Below are positions 12,809 to 50,967 of a stretch of 64,000 nucleotides of DNA, in pieces (position 1 is the first letter of the stretch; every line of letters starts with the position of its first letter). Under the pieces are notes generated by a model. That model was not told where the DNA came from and made no database searches. It saw only the letters and a program-made list of their open reading frames with translations. The stretch is from Mycolicibacterium chubuense (GTDB lineage: Bacteria; Actinomycetota; Actinomycetes; Mycobacteriales; Mycobacteriaceae): positions 140,832 to 204,831 of the forward strand of contig NZ_JYNX01000038.1 in NCBI RefSeq assembly GCF_001044255.1, read 5' to 3'. Made by a program: the position numbers and the translations under genes.

Positions 12809-12827
12809 GTAGGGCAGGCTAACCTAC
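12809..12827 (-). promoter_or_regulatory. IdeR iron box upstream of mmpS-mmpL
   Basis: The 19-base sequence GTAGGGCAGGCTAACCTAC matches the IdeR consensus TTAGGTTAGGCTAACCTAA at 15 of 19 positions, including the central AGGCTAACCTA. It ends 25 bases upstream of the mmpS Shine-Dalgarno sequence. Iron-loaded IdeR should repress mmpS-mmpL here, as it does the mycobactin genes. No binding data exist. Confidence 0.75.
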
Positions 12828-31525: not shown

Positions 31526-32265
31526 GTGCAGCTGACCAAGTCTGCGACGGTGTTCAGGTGGTCGTCCAGATAGAAGTGGCCGCCGGCGAAATCGGTGAAG
31601 GTGAAGGCACCGTCGGTGTGGATCGCCCACTGTCGCAGCAGTTCCTGATCGACACGGTGGTCGTCGCGGCCACCGAGGGCGTGAACGTCGGCCGTGATGC
31701 GCACGTCGCGCCCGCAGGTGTAGGCGTTGAAGGCCCGGTAGTCGGCGCGCACAGCCGGCAGCAGCAGGGCCAGGAAGTCGTCGTCGTCGAGCAAAGCGGC
31801 GTCGGTGCCGCCGAGATCGGCGATGTCGGTGAGCAACCCGGCGTCGGTGGTGGGCACCGGCCGCGAGCCCGCGACCGTCGACGGCGCCTGGCTGGCCGAT
31901 GCCCACAGCTCGCGCACCGTGATCCTGCGTCGGACGGCCTGCCGGGCGAACTCGAATCCGACCAGGGCACCCATGCAGTGCCCGAAGAGTCGCAGCGGTC
32001 CGAGCGCGGCCCAGTCCGCGGCGTCGAGCGTGTCGGTGGCGAGGTCGCCGACGGTGGGGGCAGCCGGATGCGCGAGCCGTTCACCGCGCTGCGGATACTG
32101 CAGGAGGAAGGTGTCGACGCCGCGTGCCGCGAGCGCCATGCCGAAACGGCGGTAGGCCGCGGCGGCGCCGCCGGCGTGCGGGAACACGAGGGTCGCGGTG
32201 CCCGGCCGGCCCGGGAACCGTTTGATCCACGGTGTCAGTTCGATGCGGTCGAGGTCGAGAGTCAT
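31522..32265 (-). CDS. mbtT: Stand-alone type II thioesterase of the mycobactin locus (MbtT), Cys nucleophile
   Basis: This 247-residue alpha/beta hydrolase resembles the editing thioesterases of NRPS/PKS systems, which clear mis-primed carrier domains. The oxyanion region is LVFPHAGGAAAAYR. The nucleophile elbow reads LRLFGHCMGALVGFEFARQ, so the usual Ser is a Cys (C97, codon TGC). The rest of the triad is D201 (LGGRDDHR) and H230 (FAGGHFYLDDH). ATG at 32265 overlaps the mbtB stop by 4 bases. In M. tuberculosis this domain is fused to the end of MbtB; here it is a separate gene, as reported for other mycobacteria. Confidence 0.88.
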   Translation of the reverse strand: MTLDLDRIELTPWIKRFPGRPGTATLVFPHAGGAAAAYRRFGMALAARGVDTFLLQYPQRGERLAHPAAPTVGDLATDTLDAADWAALGPLRLFGHCMGALVGFEFARQAVRRRITVRELWASASQAPSTVAGSRPVPTTDAGLLTDIADLGGTDAALLDDDDFLALLLPAVRADYRAFNAYTCGRDVRITADVHALGGRDDHRVDQELLRQWAIHTDGAFTFTDFAGGHFYLDDHLNTVADLVSCT

Positions 32266-35200: not shown

Positions 35201-35711
35201 CGGGAAGGCCGCGATCACCGATGCGCTGGGTGCCGTCCGGCAGGATGTCGACGCGCAGCATCGGATGCCGCTCGGCCAGCCGGGCCGTCGCGGCGCGCAG
35301 CCGGTCGGGGTCGACGCCGGCGCCGTCGAACTCCACGTAGAGGTGTGCGGCGACCCCACCGAGCTGCTGGTCTTCGTTGCGGCCGACCCACAGCGCATGC
35401 TGGATCGGGGCCAGCGGGAACGGTCCGTCGTCCTCCGCGGCAATGGTGGACTGCGCGGGCTCCCCGAGCGCGGACATCTCGCGCCCGGCCAGCAGCTCCG
35501 CCCACGCCTGCACCGTGGGTCGGCCGGCCAGCGCCGCGAAGCTCACATCGATGCCCTGTCGCCGCCAGCGCCCGGACAGGGTCATCATCCGAATCGAGTC
35601 CAGACCCGAGGCGATCAGATCGGTGTGCGGATCGAGATCGTCGGGAGCGATCCCGAGCAGCTCGGCCACCTCGTCACGAATCGACAGGACACTCGTCGTC
35701 GCTGCTCCCAC
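32262..35711 (-). CDS. mbtB: Phenyloxazoline synthase MbtB (ArCP-Cy-A-T)
   Basis: This NRPS of about 1149 residues couples the aryl acid from MbtA to Ser or Thr and cyclises it to the oxazoline iron ligand. An aryl carrier domain opens the protein (DLIASGLDSIRMMTL, Ser near 39). The cyclisation domain follows, with DMQAADAVSY giving the DxxxxDxxS motif. The adenylation domain has LFTSGSTGEPKGVEIT, YRTGDLVRY and GRADHRVKISGYR. The final carrier Ser is near 1074 (FFASGGDSVLAT). There is no fused thioesterase. GGAGG at 35720-35716 suits GTG at 35711; a TTG one codon earlier (35714) is the alternative. IdeR boxes lie just upstream. Confidence 0.93.
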   Translation of the reverse strand: MGAATTSVLSIRDEVAELLGIAPDDLDPHTDLIASGLDSIRMMTLSGRWRRQGIDVSFAALAGRPTVQAWAELLAGREMSALGEPAQSTIAAEDDGPFPLAPIQHALWVGRNEDQQLGGVAAHLYVEFDGAGVDPDRLRAATARLAERHPMLRVDILPDGTQRIGDRGLPVTVYDLRDADLPDADRHLAQIRDEKSHQLLRGQVVEFSLSLLPAGRTRLHVDLDMQAADAVSYRTFMSDLAEFYAGGTLPALGYTYRQYRAALTAASPVSDEDRRWWADRLPDLPEGPALPLVPRAEQANPRRGTRRWHTFDVATRDALFAAAHRRGITPAMAIAASYAGTLARWATHRRFLLNLPMFGREQFHPDVDKLVGDFTSSLMLDVDLGEARTPTARARVLQDSLHASAHHASYSGLSVLRDLTRLHGTPVLAPFVYTSALGLGDLFAGIVTEQFGTPVWTISQGPQVLLDAQATPMADGLMINWDVREDAFRPGVADAMFAHHLAELERLAADDGAWDAVDVSAVPPDQQARRDAVTTASAAPREALHDGFLRQAEAQPEATAVLDGDGALTYAQLREQVLAVAAALHVAGVRPGDTVAVTGPKNAEQIVALLAISTAGAVYVPVGVDHPAERGDRMLDNAGVRMVLACGDQPPTRCGLTVTEALRVGRRETGFSPPAVAGSEPAYILFTSGSTGEPKGVEITHDAAMNTVGFINAHFGIGPADRCLALSTLECDLSVLDVFGMLGAGGTVVAVDEAHRRDPDTWARLIERHGVTVLHFMPGWLEMLTGVDGDLSTVRVVPTGGDWVRPELVRALRRRAPRMRFAGLGGATETATHNTICDVDRLPEDWTSVPLGVPLPGNMCRVVGSDGLDCPDWVPGELWVGGRGIARGYCARPELTAERFVIHEGRRWYRTGDLVRYRPGGLIEFVGRADHRVKISGYRVELGDVEAALRRVPGVDAAVAAIVPTDGRRDVLGAAVCTDRDPQSVTAALSEIVAPHMIPQIVVVTDHVPFTVGGKVDRVAVARMLGAGAEVRAGRGYRAPTTPLEAALAAITGDVLGRSQVGVDDDFFASGGDSVLATAVVGRVRTWLDTPSVAVADIFAARTVADLATRLLAREPDSHRLTEVAQLFLEVAAMDGAEVRAALESPSAG

Positions 35712-35724
35712 CAAGCCTCCAGCA

Positions 35725-35743
35725 TTAGTACAGGCTGCCCTAA
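35725..35743 (-). promoter_or_regulatory. IdeR iron box, mbtB side
   Basis: TTAGTACAGGCTGCCCTAA matches the IdeR consensus TTAGGTTAGGCTAACCTAA at 14 of 19 positions with both ends intact. It lies 13 bases upstream of the mbtB GTG and beside a second box. Repression of mbtB-G by iron-loaded IdeR is known in M. tuberculosis and inferred here. Confidence 0.75.
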
Positions 35744-35808: not shown

Positions 35809-37455
35809 ATGACCTCCCCCGCAACCGACCATCCGGACCTGCTGAACGGCTTCGTCCCGTTCCCTCCTGAGCGCGCACGGCAATACCGCGATGCCGGATA
35901 CTGGACCGGCCGTCCACTGGACTCCGTCCTCACCCGGGCGGCCGCCACGTGGCCCGGATGCACCGCGATCATCGATGCGACACAGCGCTGTTCGTTCGCC
36001 GAACTCGAACAGGCAGCGGATCGGGTCGCCGCCGGGGTGGCGGCACTCGGCATCGCCGACGGCGATCGCGTGCTGGTGCAACTGCCCAATTCGTGCCGGT
36101 TCGCCGTCACCTTGTTCGGGCTGCTGCGCGCAGGCGCGGTGCCCGTGCTGTGTCTGCCCGGCCACCGGGCCGCCGAACTCGGACATTTCGCCCGGGTGAG
36201 CGGCGCGGTCGCGCTGATCATCGCCGACCGGATCGCCGGCTTCGACCACGTCGCGATGGCGCGTGACCTCGTGGCCGACCATCCGCACCTGCGCCACGTC
36301 GTCGTCGACGGCGACTGCGGACCCTTCCTGCCGTGGTCGACACTGACCGACGCCGGGGCGGCGATCGCGCCTCGCCCACCGATCGATCCGTCGCGTCCCG
36401 CGGTCCTGCTGGTGTCCGGCGGCACCACCGGGCTGCCGAAACTTATCGCCCGCACGCACGACGACTACCTCTACACCGCCACGGCCAGTGCCGCCGCGTA
36501 CGGGATGACGGCGCAGGACACCTACCTGGTGGCGCTGCCCGCGGGCCACAACTTTCCGCTGGCGTGCCCCGGGCTGCTCGGATCGATGACGGTCGGCGCC
36601 GCGACCGTATTCACCGCAGACCCCAGTCCGGAGAACGCTTTCGCGCTGATCGACCGCCACCGCGTCACCGTGACCGGACTGGTCAACGCGCTGGCCAAGA
36701 TGTGGGCGCAGGCCTGCGCCTGGGAGCCGGTGCCGCCCACCTCGCTGCGCGTCGTGCAGGTGGGGGGATCCCGGATGAGTCCGGACGACGCCCGGTTCCT
36801 GCTGGAGCGGTTGTCACCCGGCATCTCGCAGATCTTCGGAATGGCCGAGGGCATGCTCAATTTCACGCGACCCGGCGATCCGCTGGACGTGGTGATGCAC
36901 ACCCAGGGACGGCCGATGTCGCCGCACGACGAGATGCGGGTGGTCGACGAGAACGGCGCAGAGGTGGCTCCCGGCGAGGAGGGTGAACTCCTTGTCCGCG
37001 GGCCCTACACCCTCAACGGCTACTACCGCGCCGAGGACGCCAACGCGCGGTCGTTCACCTCCGACGGCTTCTACCGCACCGGAGATCGGGTGCGCGTCTT
37101 CACCGACGGTCCCCGGGCCGGCTACCTGGAGGTGACGGGCCGGATCAAGGACGTCATCCACCGCGGCGGCGAAACCGTCTCGGCCACCGACCTGGAAGAC
37201 CACCTGCACACCCATCCTGGGATCCGCGCCGCGGCTGCGGTGCCGCTGCCCGACGCCTTTCTCGGCGAGAAGATCTGCGCCGCCGTGGTATTCGCAGGAC
37301 GGCCGATCACACTGAGCGAGCTGAACGCGTTCCTGGACAGCCGCGGGGTCTCCGTGCACCTGCGGCCCGATGTGCTGGTGGCACTGCCGTCGTTGCCGAT
37401 GACAGCGGTCGGCAAGGTCGACAAGCAGCGGGTGGTGAGGTCGGTGACGGGCTGA
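35809..37455 (+). CDS. mbtA: Aryl-AMP ligase of mycobactin synthesis (MbtA)
   Basis: MbtA (548 residues) activates the aryl acid starter as an acyl adenylate and loads it on the aryl carrier domain of MbtB. It is in the DhbE/YbtE class. The phosphate loop is LVSGGTTGLPKLIARTHDDY. The aromatic region is FGMAEGMLNFTRPGD, the hinge region is YRTGDRVRVFTDG, and the C-terminal catalytic Lys is in MTAVGKVDKQRVV. ATG at 35809 gives MTSPATDHPDLLNGFVPFPP. In M. tuberculosis the substrate is salicylate from MbtI. Here the nearby 6-methylsalicylate-type synthase suggests 6-methylsalicylate as substrate; the sequence alone cannot prove this. Confidence 0.93.
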   Translation: MTSPATDHPDLLNGFVPFPPERARQYRDAGYWTGRPLDSVLTRAAATWPGCTAIIDATQRCSFAELEQAADRVAAGVAALGIADGDRVLVQLPNSCRFAVTLFGLLRAGAVPVLCLPGHRAAELGHFARVSGAVALIIADRIAGFDHVAMARDLVADHPHLRHVVVDGDCGPFLPWSTLTDAGAAIAPRPPIDPSRPAVLLVSGGTTGLPKLIARTHDDYLYTATASAAAYGMTAQDTYLVALPAGHNFPLACPGLLGSMTVGAATVFTADPSPENAFALIDRHRVTVTGLVNALAKMWAQACAWEPVPPTSLRVVQVGGSRMSPDDARFLLERLSPGISQIFGMAEGMLNFTRPGDPLDVVMHTQGRPMSPHDEMRVVDENGAEVAPGEEGELLVRGPYTLNGYYRAEDANARSFTSDGFYRTGDRVRVFTDGPRAGYLEVTGRIKDVIHRGGETVSATDLEDHLHTHPGIRAAAAVPLPDAFLGEKICAAVVFAGRPITLSELNAFLDSRGVSVHLRPDVLVALPSLPMTAVGKVDKQRVVRSVTG

Positions 37456-37470
37456 TCACCCGGCGATCAG
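37452..37470. terminator. Short hairpin between convergent mbtA and P450 genes
   Basis: CTGATC (37452-37457) and GATCAG (37465-37470) are inverted with a 7-base loop, exactly where the mbtA stop meets the P450 stop. There is no T-run, and the stem is only 6 pairs, so it is at best a weak bidirectional terminator. Confidence 0.25.
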
Positions 37471-38667
37471 GCGGACCGGCGCGTGCTCGAGACGGCGAAT
37501 GATGTTGTTCACCGCCCAGATCGGCTCTCCGACCATCTCGATGCGCTCCACACGGTCGAGCAGCGCTCGGAGCACGGCGGCGGTCTCCAACCGCGCCAGC
37601 CCCTGCCCCGCGCACGCGTGAGCGCCGTTCCCGAATCCGACGTGCCGCCCGGCGTCGCGACGAATGTCGAAGAGCCACGGGTCTTTCCACTCGCGCTCGT
37701 CACGGTTGGCCGAGGCGTACACCGCGAGCACCCGCGCACCGGCCGGGATACTGACCCCGGCGACGGTGCTGTTCCTGCCGACCTTCCTGGTGAACGCCCG
37801 CAGCGGCGACTCGAAGCGCACCACCTCGTTGATCGCGTTGGGCAACAAGGTGGGGTCCGCCCGGAGCAGCTCCCACTGCTCCGGATGGGCGGCGAAGAGG
37901 TGGATCGCGCTGGAGATGGCGCTGATCGTGGTGTCCAACGACGGTGCGATGTAGTCGATCAGCAGGGGCGGCACCTCGTCGAGGTCGATGACGCCGTCGT
38001 CGGCGGCGGCGAGCAGTTCGTGCGCCATGCTGTCCGGCAGCACGGTGCGGTCCCGGACGACGCGGCGGGCGAAGCGCAGCATCTGCACGGTGGCGGGCAC
38101 GGCCGTGAGGGCCTGCCTGTTGGCCGTCCCCAGCATGTCGAACGTCGCCGCGCCCCATCCGAGGAGGTGGTCGCGCTGATCGTGCGGCCATCCGACGAGA
38201 TCGGGCACCACCGCGAGCGGAAGCGCGGTCGCCACGTCGGTCACCGCGTCGACGGTGCCCCGGCGCACCGCGGCGTCGACGATGCGGTGAGCCCGCTCGT
38301 CGACGGCATCGCCGAGGCCGCGCAGGGCGCGCGGCATCAGCCGGTGGGCGACGAGTCTGCGGCGCCGCTCGTGCTCGGCGCCGTCGCTGTTGAGCGTCGT
38401 GCCGCGCCCGAGACGGTTGGTCAGCGCGTTGGCCGCCACCCCGTCCCCGGACAGGTACGTGCCGTCGTCGCGCAGGGCCGCTTTGCATTCGGCGTAGCGC
38501 GGAAGTGCGTAGAGCCGATGCCGGGCCAACCACACGACGGGGCCGAGCGCCCGCATCGCGCGATAGTGGGGATAGGGGTCCAGGATCGCCGACCTGCTGT
38601 AGATGCTGGGCCGGTAGACCGGGACGTGCCGGGAGCGACGGAACACCTGCACCTTTCCTGCCGTCAT
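37456..38667 (-). CDS. Cytochrome P450
   Basis: This heme-thiolate monooxygenase of 403 residues has the heme loop FGNGAHACAGQG with C352 as iron ligand. Helix I contains APSLDTTISAISSA and the ExxR of the K helix is NEVVRFES. No membrane anchor is present, as usual for bacterial P450s, which need a separate ferredoxin and reductase; none is encoded nearby. ATG at 38667 overlaps the FAD monooxygenase stop by 4 bases, so it is the last gene of a four-gene operon with ring-hydroxylating and ring-cleaving enzymes. The substrate is probably an aromatic or small hydrophobic compound. It ends against mbtA with no gap. Confidence 0.88.
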   Translation of the reverse strand: MTAGKVQVFRRSRHVPVYRPSIYSRSAILDPYPHYRAMRALGPVVWLARHRLYALPRYAECKAALRDDGTYLSGDGVAANALTNRLGRGTTLNSDGAEHERRRRLVAHRLMPRALRGLGDAVDERAHRIVDAAVRRGTVDAVTDVATALPLAVVPDLVGWPHDQRDHLLGWGAATFDMLGTANRQALTAVPATVQMLRFARRVVRDRTVLPDSMAHELLAAADDGVIDLDEVPPLLIDYIAPSLDTTISAISSAIHLFAAHPEQWELLRADPTLLPNAINEVVRFESPLRAFTRKVGRNSTVAGVSIPAGARVLAVYASANRDEREWKDPWLFDIRRDAGRHVGFGNGAHACAGQGLARLETAAVLRALLDRVERIEMVGEPIWAVNNIIRRLEHAPVRLIAG

Positions 38668-40223
38668 CGACCGACCTCGGGCGTGAAGCCGGCGTGCGCG
38701 GGGAACGAGGGCAGCGTGCGGCAAATCGCGGTGATGTCGCGGCCGGCCGCCATCACGGTGCGGTCGGGCCGGACGACGGCGGCGGACATACGGCGGCTCT
38801 CCAGCCAGCGGGCCAGCTCGGAGTCCGGTGCCGCGTGGATCGCCCGCGCACCGCGATCCGCCACGACGGTCTGTTGCATCTCGGTCAGCGCCACCGCGGT
38901 GAGCAGGCCGAAACCGAGACCCAGCTCGTCGTCGAGGCGGCGTCCGTCGTCCAGTAGCGGGTTCGGGCACAGTCGCCCCGCGATGCGGCGGGTGCGGAGG
39001 TTGCGCCGAATCAACGGCGACGCCGACAGCGGCGGGGTCTCGGAGTCGACCACCTTGGCGCGCAGGCCGGGCACCAGATGGAGACGCGGCAGGACGAATC
39101 GCCGTATCGCAGCGCCGAGTTCGCCGCCGGCGGTCATCGCGCGCCCGATGTTGAGCGCCAGCGCGATCATGTGCCGGGCATGGGGTCGGCGTTCCTGTTC
39201 GTAGCTGTCCAGCGCGCTGGGCGGCGCAGCGCCCGAGTGGACGGCGGCGATCTTCCACGTCAGGTTCATCGCGTCCCGCAGCCCCGCGCCCATGCCCTGA
39301 CCGACGAACGGGGGTGTCAGGTGCGCCGCATCGCCGAGCAGGAAGATGTTCCCCCGTCGCCAGCGATCGGCGATCTGAGCACGGAAGGTGTACTCGGCCA
39401 CCCGGATCAGCTCCAACTCGGCCTCAGCGGCGGTCCGCGTCCATGGTGCGATCAACGGCCGCAGCGCGTCCAGCGTCTGGAAGTCGGCGGCCGACTCGTG
39501 CTGGCGCAGAGCGAATTCCCATCGGTACCGGGTGTCTCCGATCCGCATGTAGGTGGCGGCCCGGTACGGATCGCAGACCTGGTGCACACCCTCCCACTGA
39601 CCCAGATCGGCAGCGGTGGCGATGTCGACCACCAGCCAGCGTTGCTCGAAGTTCAGGTTCCGCATGGTCGCGCCCATGGCGCCGCGCACCATGCTGTTGG
39701 CGCCGTCGCAGCCAAGGACGTAGTCGGCGGTGAGGGTGAATTCGCGACCACTCACCCGGTCGGCCGCGCGGAGCCGGAGCCGGCCGCCGGATTCCTCGCT
39801 GACGTCGAGTACCTCGGTGTCGCCGCGGAACTCGGCGTGCCGGTGGCGGGTCAGGTTGCGGCGCAGCAGCTCTTCCAGCTCGGGCTGATCGAACATGTTC
39901 GCGGCGGGAAAACCGTTGCGGGTCAGCGCGGTATCGCGGCGGAACTCACCGAGCACCGTCAGGTGCCGGTCGAGCAGGCGCAGACCGCAGGCCGGGCGCG
40001 AGATCGCGGCGAATTCCTCGGCGATCCCGAGCCGGGCCACGATGCGGCAGATCTCGTCGTCGAGGTGCACGGCCCGGGGCTGCGGATAGACCTGCGGCCA
40101 ACGATCCAGCACCACGGTGTCGACGCCGTACTGCGCGAGCAGGGTGGCGGCGGTGACGCCGGTGGGCCCACCGCCGACGACGGCGACCGTGACGTGCCGA
40201 ACGGCCGGATCCGTCTCGCTCAT
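38664..40223 (-). CDS. FAD-dependent aromatic-ring monooxygenase (MhpA/phenol hydroxylase-like)
   Basis: This 519-residue flavoprotein has the N-terminal FAD motif VAVVGGGPTGVTAATLLAQY and the second FAD motif ILLGDAAHLTPPFVGQGMG near residue 295. This is the layout of class A hydroxylases such as 3-(3-hydroxyphenyl)propionate hydroxylase, which add a hydroxyl ortho to an existing one to make a catechol. The intervening region has YVLGCDGANSMVRGAMGAT, the typical DG motif. ATG at 40223 overlaps the upstream gene by 4 bases. With the extradiol dioxygenase and FAH-family hydrolase it outlines a meta-cleavage route. The substrate is unknown; salicylate-type acids are only one possibility. Confidence 0.85.
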   Translation of the reverse strand: MSETDPAVRHVTVAVVGGGPTGVTAATLLAQYGVDTVVLDRWPQVYPQPRAVHLDDEICRIVARLGIAEEFAAISRPACGLRLLDRHLTVLGEFRRDTALTRNGFPAANMFDQPELEELLRRNLTRHRHAEFRGDTEVLDVSEESGGRLRLRAADRVSGREFTLTADYVLGCDGANSMVRGAMGATMRNLNFEQRWLVVDIATAADLGQWEGVHQVCDPYRAATYMRIGDTRYRWEFALRQHESAADFQTLDALRPLIAPWTRTAAEAELELIRVAEYTFRAQIADRWRRGNIFLLGDAAHLTPPFVGQGMGAGLRDAMNLTWKIAAVHSGAAPPSALDSYEQERRPHARHMIALALNIGRAMTAGGELGAAIRRFVLPRLHLVPGLRAKVVDSETPPLSASPLIRRNLRTRRIAGRLCPNPLLDDGRRLDDELGLGFGLLTAVALTEMQQTVVADRGARAIHAAPDSELARWLESRRMSAAVVRPDRTVMAAGRDITAICRTLPSFPAHAGFTPEVGR

Positions 40224-41161
40224 CGCGCGTAGCGCACCGTGAGACGTTGGGTGCCGAGGTCGAGGGCACCGTCGTCGGTGGCGACGGACGCCTCGACGAC
40301 GTCACCGTGCTGCAGGTACTTCGGGTTCTTGGCCTGCCGAGCGAAGAACGCCTTCCATTTGACGGCCGGGGGCAGCAGATTGCCGATGATCTCGATCGGC
40401 TTGGGCGGCGCGCTGAGCGCGGTGCCGACGGGTGTGCCGGTGAGGATGAGATCACCCGCGGCCAGGTCCTGGAATCGCGTCAGTGCCTGCAGCGCCTGCA
40501 GCGGGCGGTAGAGCATGTCGCCGTCGACGAGTGCGTTCTGCCGCTCCTGCCCGCCGACACTCAGTCGCAGACGCAGGTCCCCGAAGCGGGACAGCTCGTC
40601 CTCCTCGAGGAGGACCAGTGCCGGCCCCACCGGGGTGAAGGTCGGATAGGACTTCGCCTCGTAGAACTGCGTCTGCGGGAGCTGGATGTCGCGCGCCGAG
40701 ACGTCGTTGGTGATCGTCAGTGCCGCAATGTGATCGGCGAGATTCGCATCGGTGATCGTCGTCCCGACCGGGATGTCTCGCCCGATGACCAGACCGATCT
40801 CGACCTCGTAGTCGAGCAGCCGGACATGGGCGGGCCGCACGATCTCGCCGTGGGGCCCGGTGATCGAGGCCGACGACTTGCGGAAGAAGGTGAGCGGTAC
40901 CGTCGTCGGGTCCATACCCGCGTCCCTGACGTGGGACTCGAAGTTCGTCATCTGGGCGACCACCCGGCACGGCGCGGTCACCGGCGACACCAGCTCCAGC
41001 TCGTCGACCGGGACGGAGCCGCCAGCGGCCGCCGCGGCGGCCACCGCCGCCCGATCGGCCAGCAGGTCGCCGGTGCTGACCGCTTTCGTCGCGATCTCGG
41101 CCGCGCCGGTCGGGGTCTGCACCCACCAGGCGTCGGAGGTGCGGAGGACGGAGATGCTCAT
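40220..41161 (-). CDS. Fumarylacetoacetate hydrolase-family protein
   Basis: This 313-residue enzyme has the FAH fold in its C-terminal two thirds. Metal-binding acidic residues are seen in RLLDYEVEIGLVIGRDIPVG and TITNDVSARDIQ. Further conserved blocks are LILTGTPVGTALS and LQHGDVVEASV. The family hydrolyses or hydrates products of aromatic ring cleavage (2-hydroxy-2,4-dienoates, oxo acids) or acts as isomerase/decarboxylase. ATG at 41161 overlaps the dioxygenase stop by 4 bases. Its position between dioxygenase and hydroxylase supports a role downstream of meta cleavage; the exact reaction is not decided by sequence. Confidence 0.85.
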   Translation of the reverse strand: MSISVLRTSDAWWVQTPTGAAEIATKAVSTGDLLADRAAVAAAAAAGGSVPVDELELVSPVTAPCRVVAQMTNFESHVRDAGMDPTTVPLTFFRKSSASITGPHGEIVRPAHVRLLDYEVEIGLVIGRDIPVGTTITDANLADHIAALTITNDVSARDIQLPQTQFYEAKSYPTFTPVGPALVLLEEDELSRFGDLRLRLSVGGQERQNALVDGDMLYRPLQALQALTRFQDLAAGDLILTGTPVGTALSAPPKPIEIIGNLLPPAVKWKAFFARQAKNPKYLQHGDVVEASVATDDGALDLGTQRLTVRYAR

Positions 41162-42300
41162 GAGGTGGCAACTTTCAGCAGGCCCCGGAGGCGGTGGAGG
41201 TCGAACTCGTTGTCGTCGCGCAGCGCGTGGAACATCGACACGGCCTGCCGGCCCGCCGCTCTCGGGCCGGCATCGAGGAAGTCCCTCGTCACCGGCGGGC
41301 CCCACTGCGCCAGTCCGGTGGCGGTGAACGGCGCCCAGCCCGGTTCGAGCGTGTTGTCGAACAGGTCGCCGTCGGCGAAGTGCTCGACGAGGAAGCCGTC
41401 GGGATCGCGCCAGTAGTCGAACAGTTGGCTGCCCTGGATGTGGCGGCCGATTCCCCAGGAGCGGACGTAGCCGCGCTCGAGCAGATATTCACCGCCGGCG
41501 GCGAGCGCGTCGAGATCGCTGACCTGATAGGCCGAGTGCACGTACCGGTTGGCCGGACCCAGCGCCAGCGCCAGGGTGTGGTGGTCGGCGGGGGTGGCGC
41601 CGCGGTCGCAGCGGATGAAACTCATCGCCGGCCCGCGGTCGCGCTGCCCGGGGAAGTAGAGGAAGTCGCTGACGATCATGCCGAGGGTGTCCAGGTACCA
41701 GTCGAGCGTCTTCAGGTAGGTGGTCGACTGCAGGACGACGTGGCCGAGCCGTTGCACGCGGGCCGGCACGCGCGGCGGACGCACCGTGGCGTTGATCCGC
41801 GCACCGGCGCGCGCGGTGTTCGCCACCTGCGGCACCTGCACCGGCTGGGCGGGCAGCTGCTGCAGCCCGCCGACGACCTTCACCGGCGTGCCGCTCGGGT
41901 CGGTCAACTGCACCGCCACTCCCCCGATCACCTCGGGCAGGGCATGCACCGCGGCGCCGGTCTTGTCGGCCAGCCGCAGCACGTCCACCTCGTCGGCGGC
42001 ACGGAACGCGACGCCGCCGAACCGGCTGCGGGCGCCGCTGCGCAGGATCACGCACGGCCCCCCGGTGTCGGTGCCGCGCAGGTGCAGCTGCTGCGGAGTG
42101 CGCTGTGCGACGCCGAAGCCGAAGGCGCGGGCGAAAGCCTCGGCCTTGCCCAGGTCGGGCTTGTCGAACTCGAGCCAGGCGATGTCGGCCACGCGGATGA
42201 GCGGGTTCGCCGCGCGGCCGGGATGCTCGCCGCGCACGCCACCCTGCTCGCTGTGCAGATCTTTGTGCCCGTCGCGCACGGACGCGGAGGGGTCCGCCAT
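41158..42300 (-). CDS. Extradiol (meta-cleavage) dioxygenase, VOC superfamily
   Basis: This 380-residue protein has two vicinal-oxygen-chelate repeats. The N-terminal one (IRVADIAWLEFDKPDLGKAE) is structural. The C-terminal one carries the iron ligands: His in LGHVVLQST near residue 183, His in DHHTLALALG near 240, and Glu in FLVEHFADGD near 306. This 2-His-1-Glu set points to cleavage of a catechol next to the hydroxyls. Of three nearby ATGs, 42300 is chosen because AAAGGTGG lies just upstream. It is the first gene of the four-gene operon, driven from the promoter region at 42353-42383. Confidence 0.85.
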   Translation of the reverse strand: MADPSASVRDGHKDLHSEQGGVRGEHPGRAANPLIRVADIAWLEFDKPDLGKAEAFARAFGFGVAQRTPQQLHLRGTDTGGPCVILRSGARSRFGGVAFRAADEVDVLRLADKTGAAVHALPEVIGGVAVQLTDPSGTPVKVVGGLQQLPAQPVQVPQVANTARAGARINATVRPPRVPARVQRLGHVVLQSTTYLKTLDWYLDTLGMIVSDFLYFPGQRDRGPAMSFIRCDRGATPADHHTLALALGPANRYVHSAYQVSDLDALAAGGEYLLERGYVRSWGIGRHIQGSQLFDYWRDPDGFLVEHFADGDLFDNTLEPGWAPFTATGLAQWGPPVTRDFLDAGPRAAGRQAVSMFHALRDDNEFDLHRLRGLLKVATS

Positions 42301-42352
42301 CTTGCCACCTTTCACCATTACTGATGAAATCGTCACATGCGATGCTGACCTC

Positions 42353-42383
42353 AGTCAAGGCATTCTGACGAAAGCCTCAGAAT
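42353..42383 (-). promoter_or_regulatory. Candidate promoter and operator of the aromatic-catabolism operon
   Basis: On the minus strand TTGACT (42358-42353) is a good -35 for the dioxygenase gene. Just upstream lies a perfect 7-base inverted repeat, ATTCTGA (42362-42368) and TCAGAAT (42377-42383), with an 8-base centre. This is a typical operator layout for a dimeric regulator (TetR, MarR, IclR or similar), but no such gene lies in the window. The same repeat could also act as a weak terminator for the acyltransferase gene ending at 42403. Confidence 0.4.
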
Positions 42384-42402
42384 CGCCAGCTCGTGCTCCG
42401 CG

Positions 42403-43281
42403 TCAGCCCAGCAGGGGCCGACGTCCGCTGGTGAGTTCGGTCAAGGAGTCCTGCATCGCGCGCTCGACCCGGGCCGCGAACTGCTGCGCCGTCTCGTCCT
42501 GCTCCGGCGTCATCGCCGGGAGCACCCGCGTGACGAGCTTGGTGGGCATCGGAAGATACGGCAGCAGCCCCACAGCACCGACGTTGAAGCCCCACGGCAG
42601 TGACACGCTCACCGGCAACGTCTTGAGGCGCGCGATCTTGTCGAGTCGCATAGCACGGGCGAGCCCCTCCCCGCTCGACAGCACCAGCAGCGACTCCCCC
42701 GCCCCGGCGGTCACCACCGGGACGATCGGCACGTTCTGCTCGATCGCCAGATCGGCGAAACCCGAACGGCCGTCGAAGATCACGCGGTTGCGGTCCGCGA
42801 AGGTCTTCCCCGCGTCCTTGTCGCCGCCGGGGAACACCAACACGTGATGCCCGGCCTCGAACGCCTCGACGGCGCTGTCGCGGCCCGCCGGCCGCGCGCC
42901 CAACGGCTCGAGCAGCCGCCCCACTCCGAGCGTCCAGGCCAGCTGGTGGGTCAACACCGTGACCGGACGGTCCAGCTCCAGCGCGTCCAGTGCCGCGCGC
43001 ACGGCGAACACGTTCAGGTCGATGACGCCGCCGAAACCGTGGTTGGCGACGAAGAGCACGGGCTCCTGCGGCGCGGTCGTGTCGGCGTCGATCTCGAGCC
43101 GGTGATACCGACGCACGAATTCCCCGCCGGCCGCGGCGATCCCCGACATGGCGCGGGCGATCGCATCGTCGACGATCCCGTCGGCGCCGAGGTTCTCCGC
43201 GATGTCCTCGAGCGCGGCCAGCGCCGTCTCGGTGAGTTTCTCGAGCCCCTGCCGTACGCCGCCATCGGAACCGTCACCCAT
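42403..43281 (-). CDS. Glycerolipid/lysophospholipid acyltransferase-family protein
   Basis: This 292-residue protein resembles PlsC-type acyltransferases. The catalytic-type motif is VLFVANHGFGGVIDLNVFAV, with the His near residue 80 and an Asp 7 residues on. The substrate loop is HHVLVFPGGDKDAGKTFADR. A later block QNVPIVPVVTAGAGESLLVL is typical of acyltransferases acting on hydrophobic acceptors. An N-terminal helix-rich region of about 60 residues precedes the domain. It starts 27 bases after the PKS stop on the same strand, so it may be read from the same transcript. Acylation of a mycobactin-related lipid is conceivable but unproven; ordinary phospholipid synthesis is equally likely. 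Confidence 0.78.
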   Translation of the reverse strand: MGDGSDGGVRQGLEKLTETALAALEDIAENLGADGIVDDAIARAMSGIAAAGGEFVRRYHRLEIDADTTAPQEPVLFVANHGFGGVIDLNVFAVRAALDALELDRPVTVLTHQLAWTLGVGRLLEPLGARPAGRDSAVEAFEAGHHVLVFPGGDKDAGKTFADRNRVIFDGRSGFADLAIEQNVPIVPVVTAGAGESLLVLSSGEGLARAMRLDKIARLKTLPVSVSLPWGFNVGAVGLLPYLPMPTKLVTRVLPAMTPEQDETAQQFAARVERAMQDSLTELTSGRRPLLG

Positions 43282-43308: not shown

Positions 43309-46300
43309 TCAGGACACCTCGGCGCTCCGACGCTGCGGCGGCGCCTGCAGCAGTTCGACGATCCGCGCGGTGACCTCCGCGGCGGTGGGGTGCTCCCACA
43401 GCAGCGTCGGGGGCAGCGCCAGGCCGGTTCGCTTCTCCAGCGAGCGGCGCAGCGCCACCGTCATGATCGAGTCGACGCCCGATTCGATCAGCGGCGCGGC
43501 CGGATCGACCTCCCCGGCGGGCAGTCCGAGTTCGCCGGCCACCGCCTCGACGACCTGCTGCGCCGCCCACAGGGCGACATCCTCATCTCCCGGCCCGGTC
43601 GCGGCGGCGAGGTCGGGGTCACCCGTCCCGCGGGGCGCGACGTCGGCGAGCACGGGTACCGCCGTCGCCTGCGCAAGCACCGGCAGCACCACCGGATTGG
43701 GGTCGTCGCCGCGCATCACCGCGTCCAGCGCGCGCAACGCGTCGTCGGCGGCGACGGTGCCCATTCCCAGCGCGTCGAGCTGGGCCGCCACGAACTCCGA
43801 CGACGACCCCATGCCGAGGCCCCGCCAGGCCGTCCACGCGACACTGACCGTGCGGTCGCCCCGGGCACTGCGGTGCCGCGCCACGGCGTCGAGGAACGCG
43901 TTGGCGCACGCGTAGGCCCCCTGACCGGGAAAGCCGGCCAGGTACCCGCACGAGGAGAACAGCACCATCCAGTCCAGCGCCCCGGGCGGGAACACGTCGT
44001 GCAGGGTCAGCGTGCCCGTGACTTTGGGCCGCATCACGGCCCGCAGGTCGGCCGGCGTCGTCTCGGTCAGCAGCGCGCCGGCTTCCACACCGGCGGCGTG
44101 CACCACCCCGCGCACCGGCGGCAGGTCGGCGAGCACGGCGCGCAGCCGTTCACCGGCGCCGTCTGCGCCGATGTCGAGCGCCGCGACGCGGACGAACACG
44201 CCCCGTTCCTCCAGCTCCGTGATGACGCGCACGACCTCGCCGCCGGCGGTCCACCGGTCCCGTGGCGGCACACCGGTCCTCGACAGCAGCACCAGTCGGC
44301 GGGCGCCGAGATCGGCAAGCCGCCGGGCCATCAGCAGTCCCAAGGCGCCGGTGCCGCCGGTGATCACGTAGACACCGCCGGGCGTACAGGTCATCGGGGT
44401 GTGCGTCCCGGGGCGGGCCGGCGCCAGCCGCGCGGTGAGGGCGACGCCGTCGCGCACGACGACCACACCGTGACCGTGCAGCGACGCCGGCACCGCCACT
44501 GGAAGCTCTCCGTCCGCGACGTCGAGGACACCGCCCCACAGCTGCGGATGCTCGGCGGCGGCGATCCTGGCCAGCCCCCACAGCGGGGCCTGCTCGAGAC
44601 GTTCACCCTCGTGCACCCGGCGGGTCAGCACCCAGAGTCGAGCCTGGGAACCGTTGTCGCGCAACGTCGTCAGGGCACGGAGCACGGCTTCGGTGACGGC
44701 TTCGGGCGCATCGCCGGGCTGCGGCACCGCCAGCACCACGGATCCACGCTGCAGATCGCGCGGCAGCAGCGCCGGATCGGAGCAACGGCGGTGCGGGATG
44801 CCGGCCGCCGTCAGGGCGGGCCCGACGGCCGCGACGGCGTCGTCACCACCGACGAGCACCACCTCGCGCGGGGCAGCATCCTGCGGATACGGGGTCGGGT
44901 GCCATGCCATCCGGTGCAGCATCGGTGACACGTCACCGCCGGCGGGCTCGAGATCGGCGAACCGCATTCCTCTCAGCGTGGCGCGGACCGCCCCCGAGTC
45001 GTCGGCGATCGCCACGTCGGTGACGGTCTCGCCGCGGTGCCGCACATGCAGAAGCGCCACCGCGGGCGGCGCGCCCCGGACGTGCACCGCCTCGATGTGC
45101 GCGGGCATCCGCAGACGCATCGGGCCGGGCAGCACCGTCGACGCCGTCGACGTCGCGGCGTCGAGCAGACCGGCCCAGCTCGTCGGCGCCGACCCGTCGG
45201 CCTCCGCGGCCACCCGGGCCAGCACTTCCCCTTCCGTGCAATGCATCTCGAGGATGCGCCAGCCGAAGCCCATCCCTGCGACTCCAACCTCGGCCAACGC
45301 GTCGACGACGTGACTCGCCGGCAGCGACCGTCGGCACCGGCTCCGGACGTCCGCATCGAGGGTGCCGAAGTCTGCGTCGTCGTAATCGGCCGCTGTGGCG
45401 CCGCAGTGCGTCACCCAGCCCTCGGTGTCGGTTCCCACCGGCCGCGACGACAGCCGCAACGCCCGGTCCTGGTGCACCACCTGGATGTCGCGGGCCCGAC
45501 CCGGCGGTACCGGTGTGCGGAGCCGCACGTCGGTCAATCCGCCTCCCGCAGCACCCATCAGCGTGTTCACCAGCACCGCGGCGGGGACGATCTCGGTGTC
45601 GCGCACCGGATGGTCGCCCGGATACGGCCGGGTGTCCATGTCCAGCCGGGTCTGCCAGACGCGCGCGGGCACCGGGCCCGTCACCTCCATCGCGCCGCCG
45701 AGCAGGGTGTGGGCGGCGGGGTCGTGCAGCGCCTGCATGCTCGGGGGCGGCGTCGGGGTGCGCCAGAATCGGCGGTGTCGCCACTGCGTGGCGGGCAGGT
45801 CGGCCGCCCACCGGTCGGTGGGTCGCAGCCCGTGCTCGATCGGCACGCCGTGGCAGTACAGCGCTGCGGCGGCCGCGCCGATCGACCGGCGCTCCGGTTG
45901 GTCCCGGCGCAGCACCGGGACCACGGCATGGTCGCCGACGCGGTTCCCGGACTCGTGCAGCAGGGTCTCCGCGATCGAATGCGCGACGACGGGGTGCGCG
46001 GACACCTCGACGTACACCCGGTAGCCGTCCTGCGCGGCGGCCTGCACCGCCTCGGCGAACCGGACGCGGCCGCGCAGATTGGCCACCCAGTAGTCCCGGT
46101 CGCGCGGGGCGCGGGATCGGGGGTCGCCGAGTGCCGTGCTGTACAACGGGATTCGCGGTGCTGCGGGTGCCGGCAGGGCCGCCACCGCGCGGGCCAACTC
46201 GTCGGTCAGCGCGTCCATCGCGGGGCTGTGGAAGGCCACGTCGGTGTTGACCCGCCGCACGGTGATGCCCTCGGCGGCCCACGCCGCGGCGAGCGCCTCG

Positions 46301-48399
46301 ACGGCCGCGGTCGTCCCCGACACGACGGTCGAGGCCGGGGACGCGCTGATCGCCGCGACCACATCGCTGCGTCCCCGCAACCGGTGCGCCGCATCGTCGA
46401 ACGGCAACCCGGCCAAGGCCATCGCACCCCGGCCCGCCACCGACCGGAAACCCCGGGCGCGGTAGCACGCGATCGCGGCGCCGTGCGTCAGGCCGAACAC
46501 TCCCGCCTCGACGCACGCCGCCACCTCGCCGACCGAGTGCCCGATGATCGCGGCCGGCGCCACCCCCCGCGCGCGCAGCACCGCAGCGAGACCCACCTGC
46601 ATCGCGAAAGTCAGGGCCTGGACGCGGTCGGTGCCGCCCAGCTCCTCGGCTGTCAGCGCGGCGCGCGCGGAAAACCCCATCTCTCTGATGAAGACGTCAT
46701 CGATCTCATCGATGGTCGCGGCGAAGCGTGGCTCGGTGGCCAGGAGCTCCCGGCCCATCCCGGCCCAGTGGGAACCGTGTCCGGAGAACACCCACACGGC
46801 GCCGGCCTCGGCCCCGTCGACCACGGCGCCTGTCACCAGGCGGGGGTGCCGTGCGCCCTGCGCGGCGGCGGACAGAGCGTCCACGACGCCGGCGGGGTCA
46901 CGCAGTGCGTCGGTGACGACGGCGGCGCGGACCGGCTCGTGGGAGCGCCGGGTCCACAGCGTGGCCGCCAGCTCGTCGGTGCGGACGTCGACGCGGCGGA
47001 GGTGCTCGGCCATTGCCGCGGCCTGCCGGGTCAGCCGGTCGGCCGATCGCGCGGAGAACGGGGCGAACGATGTTGTCCGAGAATCTCTTTCAGAGACATT
47101 CGTGATCGGCGCCTCGTCGAGCAGGACGTGCGCCAGGGTGCCGCCGTACCCGTAGCTGCAGACCGCGGCGCGGCGCGGCACGGCGCCGCGGGGCCACGGT
47201 TCGGCCACTGTCGGCACCCGCAGCCCGCTGGCCGCCCAGTCCACGGCGGGGGTCAGGGTCTCGATGCCCGCGGTGGGCGGCAGTGTCTCGTGGTGCAGCG
47301 CCAGTGCCGCCTTGATCAGCCCGATGACGCCGGCGCCGCCTTCGAGGTGGCCGACATTCGGCTTGACCGAACCGACGGCGCACGGGGCGTCACCGCGGCC
47401 GCCGCCGTACACCGCAGACAGCGCCGCGATCTCGACGGGATCGCCTGTCGGAGTGCCGGTTCCGTGCGCCTCGATATAACCGACGTCGGCAGGTCGCAGA
47501 TCCGCTGCCCGGCACGCGGTCTCGAACAGCTCGCGCTGGGCGTCGCCGTTCGGCGACATGATGCCGACGGTCCGGCCGTCCTGCGCCACCGCGCCGCCCC
47601 GCACGACCGCGAGGATCCGATCGCCGTCGCGGCGGGCGTCGGCGAGCCGTTTGAGCACCACCACCCCGGCGCCCTCGCCACGGCCGTAGCCGTCCGCGGC
47701 CGCATCGAACGTCTTGCACCGGCCGTCCGGAGCCGTCGCACCCGCCACGTCGAGCACCCGGGTGAGCCCCGGACCGATCAGTGCGCTGACACCGCCGGCC
47801 AGCGCCAGCGAGGTCTCACCGTCGGCGAGCAGCTGACAGGCCTGGTGCACCGCGACCAGCGATGCCGCGCAGGCCGCGTCGAGCGCGACGCTGGGACCGC
47901 GCAGGTCCAGCAGGTGCGACACCCGGTTGGCCACCCCGCACAGCGACGTGCCGATCCCGGTCCACGCCTCGATGCCGGCCAGGTCCTCCATCAACAGCTT
48001 GCCGTAATCGTCGGAGTTGACCCCCATCAGCACCGCGGTGTCGCTACCGGCCAGTGCGCGCGGTGGAATTCCGGCGTGCTCCAACGCTTCCCAGGACACC
48101 TCGACCGCCAGCCGCTGCTGCGGATCCATCAGTTCGGCTTCGCGGGGGGAGACGCCGAAGAACTCGGCGTCGAAACCGGGCAGGTCGTCGAGGAAGGTGC
48201 CGAAGCGGGTCGTCTCCCGCAGCACCGCCGCGTGCCGGGGGTCGCGGTGCAGGTAGGGCGCCCAGCGTTCGGCGGGCACCTCCCGCACCGCGCTGCCGCC
48301 GGCCAGCAGGAAGGACCAGAAGTCCTCCGGCGTGGTGATGTCGCCCGCGAGCCGGCAGCCGACGCCGACGATCGCGATCGGCGCGCGGGTCACCGCCAC
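43309..48399 (-). CDS. Iterative type I PKS, 6-methylsalicylic acid synthase type (KS-AT-DH-KR-ACP)
   Basis: This single protein of 1696 residues has one module. KS: C177 (VALDAACAASLVAVH), H312, H351, then CSYGYGGTLAHVLLDEA. AT: S622 (GHSVGE), with VAFHSPAMD, the malonyl-CoA type. DH or thioester-hydrolase domain: H930 (RPYPGDHPVRDTEIVPA) and D1080 (SWAGLLDAATSTAST). KR: GGTGALG at 1348-1354, Ser1482/1483, Tyr1496 and Asn1500. ACP: Ser1644 (GVDSIMTVALRRSLEKRTG). Order, length and the blocks FSSCGYLAGF and WTAWRGLGMG match 6-methylsalicylic acid synthases as remembered. It sits where mbtI usually lies and has an IdeR box at its start. GTG 48399 is chosen; GTG 48393 is possible. Confidence 0.9.
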   Translation of the reverse strand: MAVTRAPIAIVGVGCRLAGDITTPEDFWSFLLAGGSAVREVPAERWAPYLHRDPRHAAVLRETTRFGTFLDDLPGFDAEFFGVSPREAELMDPQQRLAVEVSWEALEHAGIPPRALAGSDTAVLMGVNSDDYGKLLMEDLAGIEAWTGIGTSLCGVANRVSHLLDLRGPSVALDAACAASLVAVHQACQLLADGETSLALAGGVSALIGPGLTRVLDVAGATAPDGRCKTFDAAADGYGRGEGAGVVVLKRLADARRDGDRILAVVRGGAVAQDGRTVGIMSPNGDAQRELFETACRAADLRPADVGYIEAHGTGTPTGDPVEIAALSAVYGGGRGDAPCAVGSVKPNVGHLEGGAGVIGLIKAALALHHETLPPTAGIETLTPAVDWAASGLRVPTVAEPWPRGAVPRRAAVCSYGYGGTLAHVLLDEAPITNVSERDSRTTSFAPFSARSADRLTRQAAAMAEHLRRVDVRTDELAATLWTRRSHEPVRAAVVTDALRDPAGVVDALSAAAQGARHPRLVTGAVVDGAEAGAVWVFSGHGSHWAGMGRELLATEPRFAATIDEIDDVFIREMGFSARAALTAEELGGTDRVQALTFAMQVGLAAVLRARGVAPAAIIGHSVGEVAACVEAGVFGLTHGAAIACYRARGFRSVAGRGAMALAGLPFDDAAHRLRGRSDVVAAISASPASTVVSGTTAAVEALAAAWAAEGITVRRVNTDVAFHSPAMDALTDELARAVAALPAPAAPRIPLYSTALGDPRSRAPRDRDYWVANLRGRVRFAEAVQAAAQDGYRVYVEVSAHPVVAHSIAETLLHESGNRVGDHAVVPVLRRDQPERRSIGAAAAALYCHGVPIEHGLRPTDRWAADLPATQWRHRRFWRTPTPPPSMQALHDPAAHTLLGGAMEVTGPVPARVWQTRLDMDTRPYPGDHPVRDTEIVPAAVLVNTLMGAAGGGLTDVRLRTPVPPGRARDIQVVHQDRALRLSSRPVGTDTEGWVTHCGATAADYDDADFGTLDADVRSRCRRSLPASHVVDALAEVGVAGMGFGWRILEMHCTEGEVLARVAAEADGSAPTSWAGLLDAATSTASTVLPGPMRLRMPAHIEAVHVRGAPPAVALLHVRHRGETVTDVAIADDSGAVRATLRGMRFADLEPAGGDVSPMLHRMAWHPTPYPQDAAPREVVLVGGDDAVAAVGPALTAAGIPHRRCSDPALLPRDLQRGSVVLAVPQPGDAPEAVTEAVLRALTTLRDNGSQARLWVLTRRVHEGERLEQAPLWGLARIAAAEHPQLWGGVLDVADGELPVAVPASLHGHGVVVVRDGVALTARLAPARPGTHTPMTCTPGGVYVITGGTGALGLLMARRLADLGARRLVLLSRTGVPPRDRWTAGGEVVRVITELEERGVFVRVAALDIGADGAGERLRAVLADLPPVRGVVHAAGVEAGALLTETTPADLRAVMRPKVTGTLTLHDVFPPGALDWMVLFSSCGYLAGFPGQGAYACANAFLDAVARHRSARGDRTVSVAWTAWRGLGMGSSSEFVAAQLDALGMGTVAADDALRALDAVMRGDDPNPVVLPVLAQATAVPVLADVAPRGTGDPDLAAATGPGDEDVALWAAQQVVEAVAGELGLPAGEVDPAAPLIESGVDSIMTVALRRSLEKRTGLALPPTLLWEHPTAAEVTARIVELLQAPPQRRSAEVS

Positions 48400-48412: not shown

Positions 48413-48431
48413 TATGGTTAGCCTGCCCTAA
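48413..48431 (-). promoter_or_regulatory. IdeR iron box at the start of the 6-MSAS-type PKS
   Basis: On the minus strand TTAGGGCAGGCTAACCATA matches the IdeR consensus TTAGGTTAGGCTAACCTAA at 15 of 19 positions. It ends 13 bases before the PKS GTG. CATATT (48416-48411) could be the -10, which would put the transcript start within a few bases of the start codon (leaderless or nearly so). Iron repression of the PKS is inferred. Confidence 0.75.
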
Positions 48432-49779: not shown

Positions 49780-50967
49780 TCACGCCAGCAGCGTGCGGAC
49801 CACCGCGTCGGCGAGCAGTCGACCGCGGTCGGTCAGCACCAGCCGGTCCGCCTCGGCGCGCAGCAGGCCGTCGGCGACCACCTGCGCCGCCGCGTCCCGC
49901 TCGGCGCCGGTCAGCAGCGCGGTCGGCAGCCCCGAGCGCAACCGCACCCGCAGCATGACGTCCTCGACGTGCGAGGTGTTCTCGTCGAGGCTCTCGAAAT
50001 CGGCGACGGGAAGGCGCCGGTCATCGAGCGCGAGGGCATAGGCGTTGGGGTGCTTGACATTCCACCACCGGATGGCGCCGACGAAGCCGTGCGCGCCGGG
50101 GCCCGCGCCCCACCACTGACCGCCGGCCCAGTAGCCGATGTTGTGCCGGCACTCGGCGCCGGGCCGGCTCCAGTTCGACACCTCGTACCAGTCCAGCCCC
50201 GCGTCGGCGAGCCGCCGGTCGAGCAGTTCGTACCGCCGTGCCAGCACGTCGTCGTCGGGGGCGGGCATCTCGCCGCGGCGCACCTTGCGGGCCAGCGCGG
50301 TGCCGTCCTCGACGATCAGCGCGTACGCGGACACGTGGTCGACCCCCGCACCGATCGCCGCGTCGGCCGACCGCAGCAGGTCGTCGTCGCTCTCCCCCGG
50401 GGTGCCGTAGATCAGGTCGATGTTGACGTGGTCGAAGCCGGCGGCCCTGGCCTCCCGGGCAGCGTCGATCGCCCGGCCGGGCGAGTGCACCCGGTCCAAG
50501 GCCACCAGCACATGAGCGGCCGTGGACTGCATGCCGAGCGAGACCCGGGTGTAGCCCGCCGACCGCAACCCGGCGAAGAACGCCGGCGACGTGGACTCCG
50601 GGTTGGATTCCGTCGTCACCTCGGCCCCCGGCGCCAGCGTGAAGTGGTCCCGCACCGCGTCGAGCACCTCGGCCAGGCCGTCAGCGCCGAGCAGCGACGG
50701 TGTCCCACCTCCGACGAAGACGGTCGACACGTCCGGGACGACGTCGAGGCGGGCGGCGGCCAGGGCGAGTTCGGTCCGCAGCGCCGTCAGCCACCCGGCC
50801 GGGGTCGCGCCGCCCAGCTCGGCCGGGGTGTAGGTGTTGAAATCGCAGTACCCGCAGCGGGTGGCGCAGAACGGGACGTGGATGTAGAGGCCGAACGGCG
50901 CCCCGGGCGTGACCGCCAGGTCGGGCAGCGGCACGGGTGCCGGACGGACGGACGCGGAACCGGACAT
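49780..50967 (-). CDS. hemW: Radical SAM heme chaperone/coproporphyrinogen oxidase-like protein HemW
   Basis: This 395-residue radical SAM protein has the cluster motif FCATRCGYCDF with Cys at residues 34, 38 and 41. The glycine-rich SAM region is VFVGGGTPSLLGADGLAEVL. The later blocks TRVSLGMQSTAAHVLVALDR and NIDLIYGTPGESDDDLLRS are typical of the HemN/HemW family. The CxxxCxxC lacks the fourth Cys of true HemN, so it is called HemW, a heme-trafficking protein, rather than an oxidase. It corresponds to Rv2388c (annotated hemN) and marks the end of the mbt region in M. tuberculosis. Confidence 0.9.
   Translation of the reverse strand: MSGSASVRPAPVPLPDLAVTPGAPFGLYIHVPFCATRCGYCDFNTYTPAELGGATPAGWLTALRTELALAAARLDVVPDVSTVFVGGGTPSLLGADGLAEVLDAVRDHFTLAPGAEVTTESNPESTSPAFFAGLRSAGYTRVSLGMQSTAAHVLVALDRVHSPGRAIDAAREARAAGFDHVNIDLIYGTPGESDDDLLRSADAAIGAGVDHVSAYALIVEDGTALARKVRRGEMPAPDDDVLARRYELLDRRLADAGLDWYEVSNWSRPGAECRHNIGYWAGGQWWGAGPGAHGFVGAIRWWNVKHPNAYALALDDRRLPVADFESLDENTSHVEDVMLRVRLRSGLPTALLTGAERDAAAQVVADGLLRAEADRLVLTDRGRLLADAVVRTLLA

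Follow-up and report, generated by a model that had tools for sequence, protein, structure and literature searches.

A polyketide synthase of the 6-methylsalicylic acid synthase type in the mycobactin locus of Mycolicibacterium chubuense and its relatives as a proposed source of the mycobactin aryl cap

In about one third of the mycobacterial genomes sampled here, a polyketide enzyme appears to give mycobactin its aryl cap, beside or in place of salicylate synthase. The polyketide synthase (PKS) in question is of the 6-methylsalicylic acid synthase (6-MSAS) type and is encoded in the window analyzed here, a stretch of 64,000 nucleotides from Mycolicibacterium chubuense. We consider it likely that this PKS makes 6-methylsalicylate, that MbtA activates this acid and MbtB carries it, and that the PKS in this way fills the role of MbtI. 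The first-pass annotation had proposed the PKS as the source of an aryl cap activated by MbtA. At the level of sequence, this proposal is supported by the presence of the PKS or MbtI in every mbtA-carrying genome sampled, by the linkage of the PKS to mbtA, by a group of MbtA sequences that follows the PKS, and by an iron box.

The PKS is encoded at 43309-48399 on the minus strand by an open reading frame of 1696 aa with a GTG start and without an internal stop. Pfam matches above cut-off place KS at residues 7-379, AT at 535-836, KR at 1342-1526 and ACP at 1614-1680, and a DH_N match at 897-975 falls slightly under its Pfam cut-off (25.8 vs 27 bits). The enzyme is a single module with no ER or TE among the Pfam matches; Pfam gives no chorismate-binding domain in it, and none of the best 25 NCBIfam models listed for it reaches its own cut-off. 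The piece of 264 residues between AT and KR is a strong match to the solved structure 7vwk (E 6e-29, 104 bits), while the next solved relative, the CurH dehydratase, scores 22 bits. According to PMC9135731, 7vwk is the product-template (PT) domain assigned to the orsellinate synthase AviM, with H949 and D1104 as catalytic residues. The His and Asp of 7vwk align with His930 and Asp1080 of the PKS, which matches the His-Asp pair of the AviM PT domain. These two residues, together with S622 of AT, S1483, Y1496 and N1500 of KR and S1644 of ACP, are kept in 59/59 mycobacterial homologues, counted after removal of one fragmentary locus (L088) and of eight loci whose genomes were represented already. 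Three KS sites are kept in 58/59 and not 59/59 because the M. houstonense locus (L083) has a run of N in KS, an assembly gap. The single-module KS-AT-DH-KR-ACP enzyme of 1696 residues described at first pass is therefore borne out by the Pfam order and, for the TH/DH region, by homology to 7vwk, with its active sites intact, and the 6-MSAS motifs quoted at that time are present at residues 174, 721, 1078, 1481 and 1522. By domain order, motifs and active sites, the predicted enzyme is confirmed as an iterative PKS of the 6-MSAS type (KS-AT-TH/DH-KR-ACP).

A tree of KS domains agrees with this assignment, placing the PKS with 6-MSAS/orsellinate-type homologues (support 0.997) and apart from the other PKSs of the genome; this tree was built without a characterized 6-MSAS, and AviM is the only characterized anchor in our PKS trees. 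On the same placement we rejected a modular lipid PKS as an identity for the enzyme. In the PT-domain tree, the deep branches of which are weak (0.43-0.57), the mycobacterial TH domains cluster by themselves, and AviM joins Micromonospora homologues that have no KR (0.927). These Micromonospora-type homologues are proteins of about 1260 aa, and one pair of them groups with AviM. Because KR is intact in the PKS and the KR-less Micromonospora-type homologues join AviM, we set the mycobacterial enzyme apart from orsellinate synthases. Other 6-MSAS-like PKSs (L033, L034, L037-L039, L042, L243) were seen in Actinomadura, Streptomyces and Verrucosispora/Micromonospora (without KR) and on a Pseudonocardia plasmid, where the gene lies two genes away from an adenylate-forming enzyme.

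The window holds a mycobactin locus in which mbtA, mbtB, mbtD, the lysine hydroxylase and NRPSs occur together, with mbtB, the hydroxylase and the NRPSs recognized by domain only. The mbtA gene (35809-37455, plus strand) is 5KEI-like, and its alignment shows a PKS-associated aryl-AMP ligase with N293, R322, I342 and M349, in which the salicylate-type residues N248, F249 and C253 are kept. On the minus strand lie an mbtB-like NRPS (32262-35714; domains carrier - condensation - A), the true start of which may differ, an mbtC-like KS (30224-31906), which is a 560-aa ORF with a probably over-extended start, and mbtD (27327-30224), which is above the cut-off of the NCBIfam equivalog NF037940. They are followed on that strand by an mbtE-like NRPS (22273-27330) and an mbtF-like NRPS (17816-22276), identified by domains and named by gene order, and by an mbtG-like lysine/ornithine N-hydroxylase (16524-17816) matching Lys_Orn_oxgnase. 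MMPL-family and Mycobact_memb (MmpS-type) genes at 9528-12736, with an IdeR-like box (15/19) upstream at 12809-12827, possibly encode a siderophore exporter.

The gene hemW (49780-50967, minus strand) forms a conserved border of the slot that holds mbtI or the PKS, and this slot between hemW and mbtA is where M. tuberculosis has mbtI. The PKS had been described as lying between mbtA and hemW; the position is right, but the PKS adjoins neither gene, being separated from hemW by two genes (SnoaL and LLM) and from mbtA by five. The latter, in the interval 37456-43281 and all on the PKS strand, encode a PlsC-like acyltransferase, an extradiol-dioxygenase-like protein, an FAA hydrolase, an MhpA-like FAD hydroxylase and a P450. 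The window shares these five genes, behind the PKS and on its strand, with M. chlorophenolicum alone of the mycobacterial PKS stretches that were fetched, and they might serve in degradation or modification of 6-methylsalicylate.

The first-pass annotation found no mbtI in the window, and searches with PF00425 and TIGR03494 extend this absence to the whole 5.95-Mb genome. PF00425 identified three chorismate-binding enzymes in it, one of which is an isochorismate synthase according to a subfamily model, while the other two, judged from their translations, are presumably trpE- and pabB-like. The salicylate synthase model TIGR03494, which has a cut-off of 325 bits, scored no higher than 173.7 bits in the same 5.95 Mb, and this best score fell on the trpE-like gene. 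Since no gene scores above this cut-off, an mbtI hidden elsewhere in the source genome was rejected.

We searched 297 genomes of the genus with a salicylate-synthase model, the TH/DH piece of the PKS (E < 1e-30) and the MbtA of the window (E <= 1e-150). MbtI was found in 159 genomes and the PKS in 98, with both in 15 and neither in 55; in a further 21 genomes the TH piece gave no more than a weak match (about 31-37% identity), and these were scored as PKS-negative. Among the 240 genomes with mbtA, 83 had the PKS only, 142 mbtI only, 15 both and 0 neither. In the other 57, mbtI was found twice, neither gene 55 times and the PKS never, and no PKS without mbtA occurs among the 297 genomes. The association of PKS and mbtI gave a Fisher p of 2e-21 over the 297 genomes, which is no true probability given the kinship among them. 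In 92 of 97 genomes (G076 has no mbtA in this comparison, hence the 97) the PKS and mbtA shared a contig, and the distance from the TH piece to mbtA did not exceed 14.8 kb; in 5 they were split over contigs. The two genes face opposite ways in 69 of the 92 linked genomes, which is the arrangement of the window, and have the same orientation in 23. Named species with PKS loci are M. chlorophenolicum, where the PKS is 95% identical and the same five extra genes are present, M. vanbaalenii, M. iranicum, M. elephantis, M. tusciae, M. septicum, M. porcinum and M. senegalense. The linkage recurs across the genus, and we rejected the idea that it is a peculiarity of the source species.

Across the fetched loci, the slot between hemW and mbtA was as follows: ARRANGEMENTS. 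In one fetched set, hemW was in view beside the PKS in 19/20 PKS-only regions. Of 40 mbtI-only regions fetched, 26 had mbtI near mbtA in view, ten of them with hemW too (hemW - mbtI - mbtA), and in the remaining ones mbtI was farther away or on another contig. Since mbtI is often away from mbtA, the tie between these two genes is looser than that between the PKS and mbtA. A tandem arrangement, hemW - mbtI - PKS - mbtA, was found in ten genomes (L077-L086) that form one rpoB clade (0.975) and include M. porcinum, M. septicum and M. houstonense, which belong to the fortuitum complex. Three other genomes (G031, G110, G164) have mbtI beside hemW and the PKS, mbtA and mbtB elsewhere, and in G181 the mbtI match is weak (E 1.6e-69, far weaker than the others) and not near the PKS. 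In L088 (G076) the PKS, mbtA and mbtB were matched in several pieces or frames, and this locus looks decayed or affected by sequencing error; an mbtI match is present in the genome. Near mbtA of M. vanbaalenii BC8_1 there is a second, near-identical copy of the carrier-protein end of the PKS (L027 19041-19313), a possible scar of insertion or duplication. For M. porcinum, PMC10667711 reports mbtI as missing by Prokka annotation; contrary to this, the genome assigned here to M. porcinum (G141) holds both mbtI and the PKS, and for this reason we do not take that report as support.

The enzyme predicted to receive the aryl acid differs between the two kinds of genome. We aligned 55 MbtA sequences from PKS genomes, after the same removals as for the PKS homologues (the L088 fragment and eight loci from genomes represented already), with 40 from mbtI-only genomes, which are the best 40 of 142 and thus among those nearest the MbtA of the window. 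Position 293 is Asn in 55/55 vs Pro in 40/40, position 342 Ile in 54/55 vs Val in 40/40, and position 349 Met in 54/55 vs Leu in 40/40, while position 322 is Arg in 55/55 of the PKS group vs Lys in 31/40 and Arg in 9/40 of the mbtI-only group. The salicylate-type residues N248 and C253 are kept in 55/55 and F249 in 54/55 (one Leu) of the PKS group, and the mbtI-only group has the same residues. MbtA 342 aligns with V350 of CahJ, a residue of the aryl pocket that PMC11253843 places by the ring 4- and 5-positions. As residues of salicylate-type ligases the same paper names an Asn that serves the 2-OH, a Cys where DHB-type enzymes have Ser, and a Phe, and it names two CahJ glycines for the 6-position. 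The two glycines are identical in both MbtA groups. The differences between the groups could mark an old divergence of two locus types instead of substrate choice.

In a tree of rpoB (73 rows, without the incomplete G007, G030 and G059), PKS presence changes 9 times (FastTree) or 8 times (IQ-TREE quick), and forcing the PKS genomes into one rpoB clade is rejected (p-AU 1.2e-4). In the MbtA tree (75 rows, without G076), PKS presence changes once, and the PKS side has a support of 1.0. As judged from these trees, MbtA is split into two groups that follow PKS vs MbtI, against the rpoB tree. The simplest reading is that the PKS and its MbtA type moved, or were kept, together against the species tree. 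We lean slightly towards a broader view, in which two exchangeable aryl modules (MbtI or the PKS, each with its own MbtA type) would have passed from species to species without the remaining genome, resulting in two mycobactin classes, both of which the tandem species would make.

An IdeR-like iron box at 48413-48431 (minus strand), just upstream of the annotated PKS start, matches the IdeR consensus TTAGGTTAGGCTAACCTAA at 15/19 positions, and another at 35725-35743 (plus strand), between mbtA and mbtB, matches at 14/19. Random 350-nt pieces of the window, which itself contains real boxes, score 14 or more against this consensus in 6/400 cases. Counting matches of at least 13/19 to this consensus from 150 nt upstream to 30 nt inside the aligned PKS start, and with the same removals as in the MbtA alignment, we found a box in 43/43 opposite-strand loci, 4/4 loci of unknown orientation, 0/11 same-strand loci, 0/8 homologues outside the genus and 8/860 mononucleotide shuffles; these counts are not independent because several loci come from close relatives and 4/8 of the outside homologues are near-identical Micromonospora-type sequences. 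A box lies upstream of mbtA in 54/54 PKS loci and 39/40 mbtI-only loci, and in the same-strand PKS loci the mbtA in front has one in 11/11. This pattern is consistent with a PKS with its own promoter having its own box and a PKS behind mbtA needing none.

On our reading, in which product, activation by MbtA, siderophore structure and iron control are all inferred, the PKS would build 6-methylsalicylic acid from acetyl- and malonyl-CoA by three extensions, one ketoreduction and cyclization, and the product would leave through the TH/DH domain. With its own IdeR-type box, the PKS of divergent loci would probably be made under iron starvation. The free 6-methylsalicylic acid would be adenylated by the matching MbtA type and loaded onto the MbtB carrier, and mycobactin would then bear a 6-methylsalicyl in place of a salicyl cap. 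According to PMC4797705, the 6-MSAS of relatives consumes one acetyl-CoA and three malonyl-CoA and passes through a hydroxy-triketide, and in fungal ATX a TH domain is implicated in release.

One alternative is compatible with this explanation and may tentatively be entertained: the MbtA of PKS genomes could be relaxed, giving salicyl- and 6-methylsalicyl-mycobactins according to supply. The ten genomes with mbtI and the PKS in tandem fit such dual use, since their mbtI looks intact (nine checked residues kept in 10/10), and the strain that has CahJ makes products with both acids, according to PMC4757757. However, 83 genomes, including the source genome, have no mbtI match at all, and the aryl acid there would therefore come from the PKS or the environment.

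It is improbable that the PKS makes another aryl acid for the same MbtA, such as orsellinate, or naphthoate as NcsB/AziB-type enzymes do, and that mycobactin has a correspondingly different cap. In favor of this, 6-methylsalicylic acid and naphthoate synthases have the same domain order, and among solved structures it is an orsellinate synthase domain that comes nearest to the TH region. On the other hand, the KR residues are intact in all 59 homologues compared, whereas the Micromonospora-type proteins, one pair of which goes with AviM, are without KR; orsellinate is an unlikely product. Against a naphthoate cap, the pocket of MbtA is still of the salicylate type (Phe, Cys, Leu), and with Ile at the place of Val it should offer little room for a second ring.

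Very improbable is a separate 6-methylsalicylate-derived product made with the neighboring P450, FAD hydroxylase, dioxygenase and hydrolase, the salicylate of mycobactin coming from elsewhere: the five genes behind the PKS could use its product in the window and M. chlorophenolicum, but at E 1e-15 the remaining mycobacterial PKS stretches, some of which were incomplete, gave no match to any of the five although the PKS is still near mbtA there, and the source genome has no salicylate synthase, the PKS was not seen without mbtA in 297 genomes and all 83 mbtA genomes without mbtI have it. Membership of the PKS in a five-gene catabolic/P450 set was rejected, these genes not being found in the other stretches fetched.

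The preferred reading, 6-methylsalicylate made by the PKS and activated by MbtA, offers a genetic basis, now testable, for the 6-methylsalicyl-mycobactins of rapid growers, which are known from classical chemistry. It would mean that, at the core of a siderophore pathway, a polyketide has replaced a chorismate-derived building block and the activating enzyme has changed together with it. Drug design against MbtI is under way for tuberculosis and also for M. abscessus. This target was not found in 83/240 mbtA genomes, and where mbtI and the PKS stand in tandem the PKS may offer a way around its inhibition. Already known are the enzyme family, MbtA and the idea of 6-methylsalicyl-mycobactins. 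Among the matches listed from the open-access PMC literature there is no description of this PKS gene in mycobactin synthesis, although a specialist paper may mention it. Within that literature the gene and its location in the mycobactin locus appear to be new, as do its complementarity with mbtI across the genus-wide sample and the matching MbtA type. Published PKSs that are called modular possibly belong to the same family.

Among known systems, MbtI in the mbt-1 locus of M. tuberculosis has in common with the PKS the slot between hemW and mbtA and the proposed supply of an aryl acid to MbtA; it differs in being an unrelated chorismate enzyme, while the PKS would follow the acetate/malonate route and is predicted to add an extra methyl. 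AviM and bacterial iterative PKSs of the 6-MSAS type share the KS-AT-PT/TH start and the His-Asp pair; AviM is KS-AT-PT-ACP, while the enzyme described here has an intact KR and a mycobactin context. The cahuitamycins of Streptomyces gandocaensis offer a parallel, since PMC4757757 proposes that a bacterial 6-MSAS supplies the salicylate-type AMP ligase that starts the NRPS, namely CahJ in the case of cahuitamycin C. According to the same paper, that strain also has a salicylate synthase and its 6-MSAS is unlinked to the NRPS cluster, whereas the mycobacterial PKS lies in the mycobactin locus, with an iron box, and occurs without mbtI in 83/98 genomes.
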